Shown here: in pieces, positions 23,344 through 64,000 of the stretch
Layout of the letters: every line of letters starts with the position of its first letter
Position numbering within the stretch: position 1 is the first letter of the stretch
The notes under the pieces: generated by a model
Database searches by the model: none
The model's input: only the letters and a program-made list of their open reading frames with translations
What the model was told of the DNA's origin: nothing
Assembly (NCBI GenBank): GCA_003569245.1
Contig: BGOM01000021.1
Location: 62,001 to 126,000, forward strand
Direction: 5' to 3'
Length of the DNA: 64,000 nt
From: Opitutia bacterium
GTDB taxonomy: Bacteria; Verrucomicrobiota; Verrucomicrobiia; Opitutales; UBA953
Program-made: the position numbers and the translations under genes

Positions 23344-23413
23344 AGGAGAGACCTTTAAATTGACCGAAGGCGGTCGATTGTCAACGGGCTTGGAGGTTTC
23401 GCACTTTAGGCGT

Positions 23414-24217
23414 TTACCTTACTTTCTCTCTTAGCTCCGAGAACTTCAGACCGACTTGGGCTAAGCCTGAACCAGGCAGCCACTGGCTCCCGCTGGTGGT
23501 TTCAAAGATCAGGGCGGCATTTAAACATTTAAGTCCTTTAACAAGAGATACTTGAGACATTTCATCCTTCCTCTTGGCTGAAAAGACAATGGGCCCGTCG
23601 AGGGGGGTCGATTCCACCCACAAGATGACGTCGGGTTCGACGTGGGCCAGGGTCTCCCAGTCGAACTTGACCCAGCTACCTTTTTTCAAGGCTGACTTAA
23701 AACCTGCCCCACGCATCGGCAGGCTGAGGTAACTGTCCGGCCCGGCCATCATGCCATCCCAGATGATGAGCAGCTTGCGTGGAAGGAGGGCGGGTATGCG
23801 TTCGAGGGTCTGGTTGAGCCGCTGGATTTGCTCCGGCGATCGGCCGAGGGCCTCACCGATGAGCCGGATGTCCGCGAGCACGCACGTCTCGCTTTCCGGG
23901 GCCAGCACCAAGACCTTGAGACCCGCGCCGCGACAACGTTCGGCCCAGAGCGGGTTCGAAGTGCGGGGGAGGATGACCAGGTCGGGCTTGGCCCTTAGCA
24001 ACCGCTCGAGGTCCGGGTTGAAGACATCGCAGTCCCGCGCGGCCGGGTGCGTCGCCGGCAACGGACACCAGCGCGTGGCGGCGACGATCTTATCCGCGGC
24101 GCCGAAGTCGACCAAGGTGCGGGTCGCGCCGGGGCTGTAGGTCGCGATACGCTCGGGGGCGGCGACCGCGAGCACGGCGGCGCCGAGCAGCGCAAGCGTG
24201 GCCGACCAGCGACGCAT
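23414..24217 (-). CDS. Periplasmic substrate-binding protein, BtuF/cobalamin-type
   Basis: Signal peptide, ERIATYSPGATRTLVDFGAADKIVAATRWC, FNPDLERLLRAKPDLVIL, VEPDVILWVES. Confidence 0.78.
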   Translation of the reverse strand: MRRWSATLALLGAAVLAVAAPERIATYSPGATRTLVDFGAADKIVAATRWCPLPATHPAARDCDVFNPDLERLLRAKPDLVILPRTSNPLWAERCRGAGLKVLVLAPESETCVLADIRLIGEALGRSPEQIQRLNQTLERIPALLPRKLLIIWDGMMAGPDSYLSLPMRGAGFKSALKKGSWVKFDWETLAHVEPDVILWVESTPLDGPIVFSAKRKDEMSQVSLVKGLKCLNAALIFETTSGSQWLPGSGLAQVGLKFSELREKVR

Positions 24218-30022: not shown

Positions 30023-31230
30023 TCAACGGACCGGCGAAAGCACGTGGACCCCCTTTTTGTTGGCGAGGATGATCTCCGCCCGTCCGTCGCCGTCGAGGTC
30101 GGTCACCTCGAACTGCGTGCCGATGCCGGCCTCCGCGTCCGCGACCCGTGGGGTGAAGACGACCTTGCCCTCCGCATCCTTGGCCCAGGTGAGCCAGAGC
30201 ACGAGCGGCGTCGCCTGCGGGTTGACGTCGCCTTTCGGGCCATGGGCCCAGAAGCGCTTGCCGGTCACCAGCGCCGGTTGCCCCGCGACGATCTGGCGGC
30301 TGAGCACGAGCGCGTGCATCTGCCCCAGCGCGAAACCGCCGGCGGAGTTCGCCGGCTGGTCGTCGAGGATGCGGTGCTCGACGAACGTGATGCCGTCCGC
30401 GGATCTCCGCTGCCGGAACCAGGAGAGGCCGAAGCGGTGCGCGTCGAGCGAGGTCAGGACGTCGGCGAGCCCATCGCCGTCCACGTCGGTCACGATCATC
30501 TGCGCCCCGCCGTTGCGGCCCGCGGCGAAGGCGACGGGGTGGAAGCTCCAAGCCGCGCCCGGGGCCGTGCCCGCCGCCGGGTTTTCCCACCAGCCGGAGC
30601 GCTCCAAGATGTCGGGCCGGCCGTCGCCGTTGAGGTCGCCCACGCCGAGCCGTGCGTGAAGCGCGCGTATTTCTTCGGTTCCGGGGCGGAGACCGGGATG
30701 AACCGCGCCGGCTTCGTCGGGTCGGCCGGGTCGAGTTTCGCGTAACCCACGGCGCCGCCGGACATGCACACCAGCTCGGGTTTCCCGTCGCCGTCGAGGT
30801 CGGTCAGGTGCGGTGACTCGTTGTCGGTGCTCGCGAGGAACAGGTGGCGGGTCCAGCGGCCCGTCCCGCCGGCGCCGGGATTGCGGTACCAGAACGTCTC
30901 CTTGCCCGGGAAGCCCACGGTGATCACGTCGGGTTTCCCGTCGCCGTCGAGGTCGGCCACGAGCTGCACGAAAGACTCGGAGTAGCCCAGCGCGTCGTAG
31001 GGCCGGCCCGGGTTCGCGGCGAAGGTGTGGCGCACGCGGAAGTCGGGCCCGGCGTACCAATGCGGGCCCGCGACCAGGTCGGGCCGGCCGTCGCCGTCCA
31101 GGTCCCCGACGGCGCAGCCTTCGCTGAAGAAATCGGTCGTGATCGTCCGCCGTTCGAAACGCGGCTCCGGGGCGGCCGCGAGGGCGAGGGCGCCGAGGCA
31201 CGCCAAGGCGAGCAGGGTGGGGCGGGGCAT
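30023..31230 (-). pseudogene. FG-GAP/VCBS-repeat secreted protein, interrupted by one frameshift
   Basis: N-terminal part (MPRPTLLALACLGALALAAAPEPRF...VGDLDGDGRPDLVAG) and C-terminal part (GVGDLNGDGRPDILERSGWWENP...[19 protein letters not shown]) lie in different frames joined near 30648-30653. Confidence 0.75.
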
Positions 31231-31261
31231 GGGTCGACCTTGGCGCGGCTCGGCGCCGCAC

Positions 31262-31294
31262 GCAAAAACAAAGCAAGCGAGGCCGGAGCCTCGC
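31262..31294 (-). terminator. Rho-independent terminator downstream of ilvD
   Basis: GCGAGGC (31277-31283), CGGA, GCCTCGC (31288-31294), with TTTGTTTTTG on the minus strand. Confidence 0.65.
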
Positions 31295-31319
31295 CCGCGT
31301 CGGACCGTGGCCGGCCGGC

Positions 31320-40830: not shown

Positions 40831-42275
40831 TCAGAGCAGCGGCTCGACGATCCGGGACAGCCGTTCGCCGAGCCGGCCCTGCCAGGTCCGGCTGCGACGG
40901 TAGAGGTCCTCGGAGTAACGCGCGCACTCGGGCTCGAGCCCGGCGACGTAGTCCTCGATCGCGCGCACGGTCGCGGGCTCCCGCAGGACCGCGCCGACCT
41001 CGTAGTTGAGGAAGAGCGAGCGCAGGTCGAGGTTGGCCGAGCCGATGACGGCGGTGGCGCCGTCCACCACGACGAGCTTGGCGTGCAGCACGTCCGGCTT
41101 GAAGAAGAGGATCTCGGCGCCGGCCTCGTGCAGCGTGCGCAGGTACCAGCGGCGCGCGAAGTCCAGCAGCCGGTGGTCGGAGCGGCGCGGGATCACGAGC
41201 CGGACCCGGCGGCCGCGCCGGGCGGCCGCGCCGAGCAGCGCGAAGAGGCGGCGGTCGGGGACGAAGTAGGGCGTGACGATGGTGATCGAGGTCGCCGCGG
41301 TCTCGAAGAGCCGGGCGTAGGCTTCCCAGAGGGGGTCGCCCTCCGCGTCCGGGCCGGTCGCGATGACCTCCACGCTCGCCGGCCCGGCGGCCAGCTGCCG
41401 TTCCCGCAGCTGGTCGGCGTAGCGCCGCGGGGGTTCGTCGGTGGCCTGGCACCAGTCGGCGATGAAGATGCGTTCGAGCGCCCCGGCGACCGGTCCTTCC
41501 AGCCGGAACGAGCAGTCGCGGAAGCGGCGGTTCGAGGGGCGCCGCCCCATGTAGCCCAGCCCGAGGTTCTGCCCGCCGATGATCGCCACCCGGCCGTCGA
41601 ACACGGCGAGCTTGCGGTGGTTGCGCCAGTTCGCGGAGCCCTTGCCCTGGAGGGGCAGGGCGGGTTGAAGCGCGCGACGCGCCCGCCGGCCCGGAGCAGC
41701 GGGCGGCAGAGCACGAGCGGCATGCCCCAGCTGCCGACCGCGTCGACCAGCAGGCGCACCTCCAGGCCTTCGCGGGCCCGGCGGGCGAGGAGGCTGACGA
41801 TCTCGCGGCCGACTTCGTCCGGACTCAGGATGTACGTCGCGATGTGGATCCGGCGGCGCGCGGTCAGGATCTCTTCGCGCAGGGTCTCGAGGGTGTCGCG
41901 CCCGTGCCGGTCGCCCAGCAGGCGCACGGCGTTGCCGCGGCTTTCGGCCGGTTCGGCCAGGCTCCACGCCACCCGGTTGACCTCCCGCTTGGCCTCGGCC
42001 AGGGCGGCGTGCTTGCGGCCGCCGAACAGGAACAGGGCCAGCGCCGCGCCCTTGGGTACGAACCACGCCAGCGGGCCCCACAGCAGGAGGTAGAGCGGCG
42101 AGATGCGGGCCGAGCCGACGCGGAAGAGCACGTAGAGGCCGCAGACGACGTCGACGGCCAGGACCGCCTTGGCCGGGAGCCAGCCGGCCGACTCGCCGAC
42201 GAGCACGGCCGCGGTGGCGCCGAGCGCGAGGCCCGCGCGCAGCGCCAGGCGACCGTATCCGCGGAAGGCTGACAT
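40831..42275 (-). pseudogene. cls: Cardiolipin synthase / phospholipase D family protein, interrupted by one frameshift
   Basis: N-terminal frame MSAFRGYGRLALRAG...RIHIATYILSPDEVGREIVSLL; C-terminal frame ANWRNHRKLAVFDGRVAIIGGQNLG and VLHAKLVVVDGATAVIGSANLDLRS (two HKD motifs). Frames join near 41655-41665. Confidence 0.82.
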
Positions 42276-42310
42276 GCCTGCACGCTAGCCGCTCCCCGGC
42301 CCATGGGCAC

Positions 42311-42337
42311 AAAAAAAGACCCCGGTCGCCCGGGGTC
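42311..42337 (-). terminator. Rho-independent terminator of rpsA
   Basis: A7 (42311-42317) then GACCCCGG (42318-42325), TCGC, CCGGGGTC (42330-42337); U-tract on the minus strand. Confidence 0.85.
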
Positions 42338-42359
42338 TGCGGTCCGCTGGCAGGAGGGC

Positions 42360-60003: not shown

Positions 60004-60173
60004 GGAGCGGAAGGGCCGCTGAGTACTGAGTACGGAGTGCGGATTACAGAGGGGCGTGACCCGCTTGGCACCGGGTCTCCTTGGCCTACGGTTCCGTACT
60101 CATCACTCATCACTCTGAACTCTAGTACTCAGTACTCAGTACTCCTTACTCCATCTCCCGTCTCTTTACTGCC
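60004..60173. repeat. Word-repetitive inverted-repeat intergenic element 2 (between convergent priA and corA)
   Basis: GAGTACTGAGTACGGAGT (60021-60038) pairs 17/18 with ACTCAGTACTCAGTACTC (60127-60144); multiple ACTCATC / AGTACTC tandem words. Confidence 0.7.
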
Positions 60174-62016: not shown

Positions 62017-62139
62017 GGCACCGGGGATTCCTTGATGGCTGTCCCGGCCCGGGCGGGCAAGACCGAACTGGTCCGGTTTACCCCGTTCCGGGACGTCCGT
62101 CGGCTTGCAACCGGCCACCGAACCCCAATGTTGGCGGGC

Positions 62140-62508
62140 ATGGACCTTGCCGCGAACCCAGCCACCCCCCGTGTGGCCGACGAGCGCCTGTTACGCCTGA
62201 CGGCGCCGGCGGGGCGCAAGGTCCTGGCCCTGGCCACCCGGGAGGGGCAGGGTGCCTTCCTGCGGGTCGCCATCACCGGCGGCGGTTGCAACGGGCTGTC
62301 CTACAAGATGCGTTTCGTCGCCGAGCCGAAGGCCGGGGACATCCTGGTCCGCTCGGAGGGGGTCGAGGTCCTGGTCGATCCGAAGTCGGCCCTCTACCTT
62401 CGAGGCACCCAGCTGGACTATTCCGACAAGATGATCGGCGGCGGCTTCAAGTTCTCGAACCCCAACGCCAAGGCCAGCTGTTCGTGCGGGGAGAGTTTCT
62501 CGCTCTAG
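62140..62508 (+). CDS. HesB/IscA-type iron-sulfur cluster assembly protein
   Basis: VAITGGGCNGLSYKMRFV, LYLRGTQLDYSDKMIGGGFKFSNPNAKASCSCGESF with three conserved cysteines; start could also be 62128. Confidence 0.92.
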   Translation: MDLAANPATPRVADERLLRLTAPAGRKVLALATREGQGAFLRVAITGGGCNGLSYKMRFVAEPKAGDILVRSEGVEVLVDPKSALYLRGTQLDYSDKMIGGGFKFSNPNAKASCSCGESFSL

Positions 62509-62519
62509 TCTGCGATTAG

Positions 62520-62820
62520 AGCGAAGGAGCAGGGCTAGGGACAGGGCTGCATCGAGTGCTGAGTCGAGTACAGAGGGCGGAATCGAGTACAGAGTGCAGA
62601 GTACGGATTACAGAGTACAGATTACAGAGTACGGAGTACAGAGTGCGGGGCGCAGGGAGACGAAGGGACAGGGTCAGTAGGCAGGAGCAGGCTTATAGGC
62701 TAAGGCTAGCCTACCCTCCGTACTCTGCACTCGATCCAGCACTCGACTCAGCACTCCGTAAGTTTCTCTCCTTCCCCTGCCTACTGACCCTGTCCCTGAC
62801 CCTTCTCTCTCTTTGCCTCT
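62520..62820. repeat. Word-repetitive inverted-repeat intergenic element 3, with crossing (pseudoknot-order) pairs
   Basis: GAGTGCTGAGTCGAGT (62554-62569) is an exact complement of 62741-62756; GAGTGCAGAGTACGG (62592-62606) of 62718-62732; GGGACAGGGTCAGTAGGCAGG (62665-62685) of 62776-62796. Confidence 0.8.
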
Positions 62821-62941
62821 CGGTAGGGACGAGCGTCCCTGCTCGTCCGCGGCCGAAACACGGGGCCGGGTACCATCACGCTGCGCGTGCTGAAGCCAGA
62901 CCCCATGCCGGCGGCCGACCGGGGACGGTCATCCCTACCTA
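62821..62941. repeat. REPIN-like element: two inverted REP palindromes headed by GTAG
   Basis: REP1 (+, 62823-62848) GTAG GGACGAGC GTCCCT GCTCGTCC; REP2 (-, 62938-62913) GTAG GGATGACC GTCCCC GGTCGGCC; 21/26 identical. Confidence 0.7.
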
Positions 62942-62973
62942 GGCGGGCTTCGCCGTCGGGTCCGTTCCCACGC

Positions 62974-64000
62974 TCAATCCGCCGGGATCTCGTCCTTGGC
63001 GCCGGCTTCGTAGCGTTCGCACCATGCCTTGGACCAGGCGGCGAAGTCGCCCGCGGCGATGTGCGCGTGGGCCTGGGCCATGAGGTCCTGCAGGAAGTGG
63101 ATGTTATGCAAGGCGAGCAGGGTGCCGCCGAGCTGTTCGCCGGCGTGGTGCAGGTGGCGCAGGTAGGCGCGGGAGAAGTGGCGGCAGGTATAGTTGTCCA
63201 TGCCTTCGACCAACGGACGATGGTCCTCGCGGTAACGCAGGTGCTTCACGCTGATCGGACCGTCGGGCGTGAACGCGCCGCCGTGGCGGCCGATGCGCGT
63301 GGGCATCGTGCAGTCGAACATGTCGGCGCCCAGCGCGACCATGCGGAGAAGCTGGGGCGGGGTGCCGACGCCCATGACGTAGCGCGGCTTATCCTTGGGC
63401 AGGAGCGGGGCGACCAGCCCGACCTGATGGAGCATGTGCTCCTCGGGTTCGCCGACGCTGACGCCGCCGATGGCATGGCCGGGGAAATCGAGCCCGCCGA
63501 GCTCCTCGGCGCACCGGATGCGCAGGTCGTCGTAGACCGAGCCTTGGTTGATGCAGAAGAGGTGACGACCCGAGGCGAGGAAGCCGCGGTCCTTGGCGAG
63601 CTGGAGCATCTCCTTGGCCCAGCGGATCGAACGGGTCACCGCGACCTCGCACGAAGCGCGGTCGCACGGGTAAGGGGGGCATTCGTCGAGCACCATCGCG
63701 ATGTCCGAGCCCAGCGCGTCCTGGATGTCGAAGCAGTCCTTCACGTCGAGGAAGAGCTTGTTGCCGTCGAGGTGGGAGCTGAAATGGATGCCTTCGTCGG
63801 TGATGGTACGGAGCTTCGCGAGCGAGAAGACCTGGAAGCCGCCGCTGTCGGTCAGGATCGGCTTGTCCCAGTGCATGAACTTGTGGAGACCGCCGGCGGC
63901 GCGGACGATCTCCCGGCCCGGGCGGAGGTTCAGATGGTAGGTATTGCTGAGCAGGATCTGGGCGCCCGTCTCGGCGACCTGCTGCGGGGAGAGCCCTTTG
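62974..64000 (-). CDS. tgt: Queuine tRNA-ribosyltransferase (5' end runs off the window)
   Basis: LSNTYHLNLRPG (63877-64000 reverse complement), ILTDSGGFQVFSL, GGVSVGEP, YVMGVGTPPQLL, DMFDCTMPTRIGRHGGAFT, SRAYLRHL, HNIHFL. Confidence 0.93.
   Translation of the reverse strand, partial: KGLSPQQVAETGAQILLSNTYHLNLRPGREIVRAAGGLHKFMHWDKPILTDSGGFQVFSLAKLRTITDEGIHFSSHLDGNKLFLDVKDCFDIQDALGSDIAMVLDECPPYPCDRASCEVAVTRSIRWAKEMLQLAKDRGFLASGRHLFCINQGSVYDDLRIRCAEELGGLDFPGHAIGGVSVGEPEEHMLHQVGLVAPLLPKDKPRYVMGVGTPPQLLRMVALGADMFDCTMPTRIGRHGGAFTPDGPISVKHLRYREDHRPLVEGMDNYTCRHFSRAYLRHLHHAGEQLGGTLLALHNIHFLQDLMAQAHAHIAAGDFAAWSKAWCERYEAGAKDEIPAD

Follow-up and report, generated by a model that had tools for sequence, protein, structure and literature searches.

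Inward-oriented arrays of a degenerate heptad repeat in the intergenic spacers of a freshwater Opitutae bacterium

Results

We focused on a spacer at positions 62520 to 62820 of the window, i.e., the whole stretch of 64,000 nucleotides analyzed here, which belongs to the draft genome of a freshwater Opitutae bacterium (2.45 Mb, 24 contigs, 91% complete). As a preliminary description of this DNA had stated, the flanking genes are convergent: on the left lies an iscA-type Fe-S cluster gene (62131 to 62508, + strand; Pfam Fe-S_biosyn, E = 1.3e-17; stop at 62508, start codon uncertain) and on the right tgt, the gene for queuine tRNA-ribosyltransferase (62974 to 63999, − strand; Pfam TGT, E = 1.5e-130), which reaches the window edge. 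Gene calls were made with a home-made codon scorer, and gene borders are approximate. From the iscA side, the spacer opens with a block of AGGGNN hexads whose purine strand runs inward (62527 to 62546, +; partner at 62788 to 62807), followed by a left array (62554 to 62646, +) of 12-mer words (GAGTGCTGAGTC) and then of the heptads GAGTACA, GAGTGCA, and GATTACA. At 62585 to 62644 the G/A words are arranged as tandem 7-bp repeats (unit GAGTACA, 8.6 copies, TRF period 7), a feature that had been overlooked. Beyond a central tract (62641 to 62768), a right array of GTACTC and GCACTC (62717 to 62756, −) carries the same words on the opposite strand. The spacer is adjoined by a hairpin module, GGTAGGGACGAGCGTCCC... 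(62819 to 62942, with arms 62819 to 62850 and 62911 to 62942), and modules in this style occupy further spacers of the genus. The window holds a second, previously overlooked heptad element at 60021 to 60144, between convergent priA-like and corA genes, with a + array (60021 to 60047) and a − array (60096 to 60144). Three long stretches of the window have no predicted gene (23344 to 24216, 30644 to 31319, and 41605 to 42359).

Searching the window against Rfam returned only a tRNA, with no match in the spacer, and the search of 62400 to 63100 for an intrinsic terminator (GC stem, then T tract) gave no sites. The heptad GAGTRCN is devoid of the GGG of a G-quadruplex-type G-tract, such tracts being confined to the hexad block AGGGCTAGGGACAGGG. 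A literature search for peptide or DNA strings of these repeats found none.

The inverted pairs of the spacer are real and far beyond chance, since the longest exact pair is 22 nt, compared with a maximum of 13 in 1,000 dinucleotide shuffles. Pair A1 (62554 to 62569 with 62741 to 62756) matches at 16/16 positions as described before, while the two other pairs proved longer than first reported: A2 (62592 to 62607 with 62717 to 62732) matches at 16/16 rather than 15/15, and B (62664 to 62691, +, with 62770 to 62797, −) spans 28 nt at 93%, with 26/28 pairs, rather than 21/21. The left array thus holds the left arms of A1 and A2 and the right array their partners A2′ and A1′, whereas the left arm of B lies within the central tract. 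The order A-B-A′-B′ given earlier is correct, but the pseudoknot it implies is not the sole option, because the right arm of B is also the partner of the hexad block. This alternative (62527 to 62546 with 62788 to 62807, 20 nt at 85%) forms an outer closure of A that leaves the structure wholly nested, and the minimum-energy fold uses this helix in place of B. The folding z score of the spacer against shuffles is −3.1 for the + strand and −4.0 for the − strand.

The words of the spacer occur genome-wide, mainly as GAGTRCN heptads together with 12-mers and AGGGNN hexads. A sequence query of the genome gave 119 matches, and the two-word pattern GAGTRCNGAGTRC, allowing one mismatch, was found 135 times forward and 135 times reverse versus 10 and 10 for a reversed control. 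Arrays of this kind occupy ∼47 intergenic gaps of this genome and are also present in congeners and other phyla; a single array overlaps a predicted gene, by the home-made gene calls. Being 7-bp tandem, degenerate, present at many loci, and mostly intergenic, the arrays have the features of the heptamer SSR kind. One array block is duplicated exactly (C13, 820 to 1211, and C24, 182277 to 182668), which is probably contig-end redundancy in the draft assembly.

Across the genus, the array load is uneven: this genome has the most hits among 55 congeners, arrays are also strong in G021, G014, G056, G023, and G040, and most of the 55 species have none. No match came from 13 genomes that represent further genera within the order. 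Our scan of GTDB species genomes yielded at least 120 stretches, to be read against a rough chance expectation of ∼15 hits over the whole collection, such that a genome with one hit may owe it to chance. Among the matches listed are Opitutae lake MAGs, Acidobacteria, Clostridium hydrogenum, rumen Clostridiales, Anabaena, Fortiea, Acidimicrobiia, Chloroflexota, and Pirellulaceae, and both the words and their inverted order recur in at least six phyla. Pattern counts reach 443 + 428 in an Acidobacterium, 237 + 341 in C. hydrogenum, and 94 + 119 and 127 + 152 in two Clostridia, with controls of 0 to 4. Each genome favors its own linker letter (T in 128/130 cases in the Acidobacterium, A in 58/61 in Clostridia, and A or G in our genome), which fits homogenization within genomes. 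Clostridial arrays have stereotyped inner ends, AGATTGAATAGTC and AGATTTATATAGTC, and some of them also resemble one another in the core, which reads CTGGACAATGAA... (L111, 5033 to 5191 and 7152 to 7281; L269 to L288), thereby resembling a defined element more than the Opitutae arrays do. With regard to a phage as a candidate vector, the pattern is also carried by 35 IMG/VR stretches, including the viral-classed contigs L330, L331, L333, and L340, some with several array matches.

In our genome, 66/77 arrays read into the spacer on their purine strand, away from whichever gene border is closer (P = 1e-10). This inward rule applies at the 3′ borders of genes (43/52) as well as at their 5′ borders (23/25), and it holds in convergent, tandem, and divergent gaps. 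It is found again in the Clostridia genome G069 (38/42), in the Acidobacterium (40/45; G070), and in C. hydrogenum (16/19), and is weaker in a mixed rumen set (14/19, P = 0.06); among neighboring opposite-strand arrays of other genomes, the order +− occurs 27 times versus twice for −+. Array-bearing gaps are enriched for convergent genes (18/47 versus 10/109; odds ratio, 6.1; P = 5e-5). Within 464 kb drawn at random from the genome (L304 to L323 plus the window), genes have pyrimidine-rich 5′ leaders (mean skew, −0.21) and slightly purine-rich 3′ flanks (+0.07). Ordinary flanks are therefore already skewed in composition, which accounts for part of the inward rule. In the same sample, 83% of the 40-nt stretches before start codons were not purine-rich; the pyrimidine-rich leaders suggest a weak use of Shine-Dalgarno sequences in this genome.

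The iscA-tgt neighborhood is syntenic in 29 species, of which only ours and a sister species (G014, iscA 96.8% identical) share a GAGTAC array that is homologous. A separate array occupies this gap in G064, a more remote relative, and the remaining gaps are filled with different hairpin and word modules. These modules include GGTAGGG...CCCTACC, GGGAGACCGG...CCGGTCTCC, and CAGGTCTCGGGTCTC (L199 to L227; window, 62819 to 62942), and the spacers of the genus resemble quickly swapped modules. All 29 orthologous spacers fold better than shuffled sequences (mean z, −5.1) with differing words, and a hairpin-rich spacer in general may be under selection. In the one close ortholog, that of the sister species, the flanks and the left array align with ours and the center is unrelated. 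The right array and the left arm of B are missing, while the position of the right arm of B is kept. As a result of this replacement, standard pairing of the three helices falls near the ∼37% expected at random (A1, 8/16; A2, 7/16; B, 13/28), so that complementarity is not maintained as the words change, an outcome that the preliminary description had set as refuting its reading. In the outer hexad helix, 17/20 pairs persist with nearly unchanged sequence.

Given that both halves of an array pair are written in the same repeat words on opposite strands, a match between them is to be expected, and we compared own with swapped arms. Swapped arms pair as well as own arms in Clostridia, rumen Clostridiales, and Acidobacteria (P = 0.24 to 0.98). 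For the array at 62520 to 62820, the self-duplex takes 9th place when compared with those formed with all 18 right arms at hand, and by its exact run (16) it takes 6th place. In our genome overall, the exact complementary runs inside a locus slightly exceed those formed across loci (12.5 versus 10.6 nt, P = 0.0001), and the duplex energy is marginally better within loci (P = 0.06 to 0.11); some inverted copying at the locus level, or weak selection, is possible in this genome. We infer that the hairpin and the seeming pseudoknot arise incidentally from the words that both halves have in common.

A second locus of this genome, ∼5.4 kb from here, matches the central tract (62641 to 62768) with 88% identity over 137 bp; its copy of B′ carries a 6-nt deletion. 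The two corresponding loci of the sister species also have a common center (79% over 131 bp), which is unrelated to our pair. At each of the two loci, the flanks are orthologous between the genomes and the centers have no similarity between orthologs. The simplest reading of these alignments is that the centers were exchanged in each lineage by ectopic gene conversion or recombination. Such an exchange would account for A′, B, and B′ meeting at this locus. Elsewhere, a 207-bp unit with + and − arrays stands in three tandem copies (L046, 2958 to 3502), pointing to local growth at another locus.

Discussion

We consider it likely that the spacer contains a dispersed, noncoding intergenic repeat made of inward-running degenerate heptad arrays, which grew by slippage and by ectopic exchange or conversion. 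Arrays extending from each gene border with the purine strand inward would leave left and right halves with the same words on opposite strands; polymerase slippage on the 7-bp units would lengthen them, and their spread or turnover would follow from arrays recombining or undergoing gene conversion with one another at ectopic sites. Of the readings offered in the preliminary description, the best fit is the DNA element growing through copying, with ∼47 gaps and the exchange of the center in its favor, even though slippage and conversion are read from the repeat pattern. A dedicated function is not needed for the arrays. The comparisons draw on one close ortholog, on MAG assemblies, and on loci picked by the repeat pattern itself, and a search for empty sites in the 7.3-kb neighborhood of three congeners gave no usable filled/empty pair.

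Slippage and conversion do not explain the purines-inward layout. There is a minor but real chance that the arrays form a two-way transcription barrier. Transcripts from either gene would cross purine-rich and then C-rich, G-poor RNA before the opposing gene, and selection would act on composition and folding, not on words. The enrichment in convergent gaps, the lack of an intrinsic terminator around the spacer, and the strong folding of the 29 iscA-tgt spacers agree with this, as does an excess of C over G in the last 80 nt on the iscA side (26/29) and the tgt side (29/29), despite word turnover. The 29 species are related and have flank modules in common, however, and are thus not independent, and the same orientation prevails in gaps of the divergent and tandem types as well as at 5′ borders, where a terminator is unwanted. 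The layout would suit Rho-dependent termination, or hairpin pausing, in both directions, and the barrier as a whole is possible but unproven. Within the slippage and conversion account, a block to read-through in both directions may retain arrays between convergent genes. It is rather improbable that a single process, an active writing or spreading system with a common sequence preference as opposed to chance slippage, writes GAGTRCN heptads purine-inward in at least six phyla with a genome-specific linker.

A miniature mobile element that has inverted heptads at its ends and depends on a transposase acting in trans (a MITE, or a REPIN with its RAYT) would be dispersed, intergenic, and inverted, and the stereotyped inner ends of the AGATTGAATAGTC type in Clostridia are in line with it. 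We nevertheless consider it unlikely, since every locus has arms of its own length and its own order of words, and centers are locus-specific or homogenized by exchange instead of family-wide. Our genome moreover has 0 matches to the Y1 transposase (Y1_Tnp, PF01797) despite its highest array count, which led us to reject a RAYT mechanism. By its geometry, the orientation is that of a pair of G-rich 3′ extensions meeting head to head, as telomerase-like or reverse-transcriptase addition of repeats to broken DNA ends would produce on both sides; reverse transcriptase (RVT_1, PF00078) was found in only 1/55 congeners, the sister species, and not in our 91%-complete genome, and we rejected this mechanism as extremely unlikely. 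SbcD removes long DNA hairpins, and we considered its loss as an enabling condition. SbcD (TIGR00619) was above the cutoff in 0/55 congeners, with or without arrays, the same search being positive in 13/14 control genomes; the protein is present in two other array-bearing genomes, and the idea was dropped. With neither reverse transcriptase nor Y1 transposase found and the absence of SbcD not required, slippage plus ectopic conversion is the minimal account. The conserved pseudoknotted RNA that the preliminary description had entertained, built on helices A and B, is very improbable: the near-complete pairing in our genome speaks for it, but the loss of that pairing in the sister species, the deletion in B′ of the paralogous center, the equal pairing of swapped arms in Clostridia, rumen Clostridiales, and Acidobacteria together with the middling rank of the own arms at this locus, and the lack of an Rfam match speak against it, and the ortholog comparison and arm swaps lead us to reject it. 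The draft state of the genome and the block repeated on C13 and C24 could hint at an assembly artifact, which is hardly credible given that the independent assembly of the sister species carries the orthologous left array and that the same arrays appear in other assemblies and phyla.

Heptamer repeats are frequent in bacteria but unexplained, and this case yields three measurable rules: arrays point inward at every type of border, genomes across phyla use their own dialects of one word, and centers are homogenized within genomes but not between them. The orthologous spacers of 29 species allow the gain, loss, and exchange of arrays to be dated. The case also warns against taking long inverted pairs in DNA of this kind as evidence for a conserved RNA fold.

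Among known repeats, REPINs are short palindromes of defined form that go together with RAYT transposases. They are described as dispersed intergenic inverted repeats (PMC3116915). Our arrays are alike in being dispersed, intergenic, and inverted, and differ in that our genome has no Y1_Tnp match. TAACTGA direct repeats have a patchy cross-phylum range, spanning Beggiatoaceae, Cyanobacteria, and Bacteroidetes, and in Beggiatoaceae they lie mostly directly upstream of start codons, with only one indirect repeat reported there (MacGregor 2015, PMC4679880). They share with the GAGTRCN arrays the intergenic heptad layout and the patchy distribution across phyla, but not the word. The heptanucleotide repeats of heterocystous cyanobacteria are known as STRR. 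By description, these are 7-bp tandem intergenic units like ours, and the GAGTRCN matches include cyanobacteria (Anabaena and Fortiea); the heptanucleotides of Calothrix are mentioned in PMC4692102. The intergenic heptamers of Xanthomonas and Nostoc, GGGAATC and GGGGA(C/T)T, show a strand preference next to ORFs and are underrepresented in divergent gaps, and those of Xanthomonas form 70 to 75 convergent inverted pairs per genome (Rehm et al. 2015, PMC4692102). Our arrays are likewise dispersed, degenerate, mostly intergenic heptad arrays with the same orientation rule. Unlike those heptamers, they use the word GAGTRCN, are not a G-quadruplex repeat, have 12-mers and hexads mixed in, occur in many phyla, and have a central tract exchanged between loci. 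Our best reading is that the convergent heptamers of Xanthomonas and Nostoc are the closest published kind, and that the GAGTRCN arrays belong to this same broad kind with another word, as a different repeat family.
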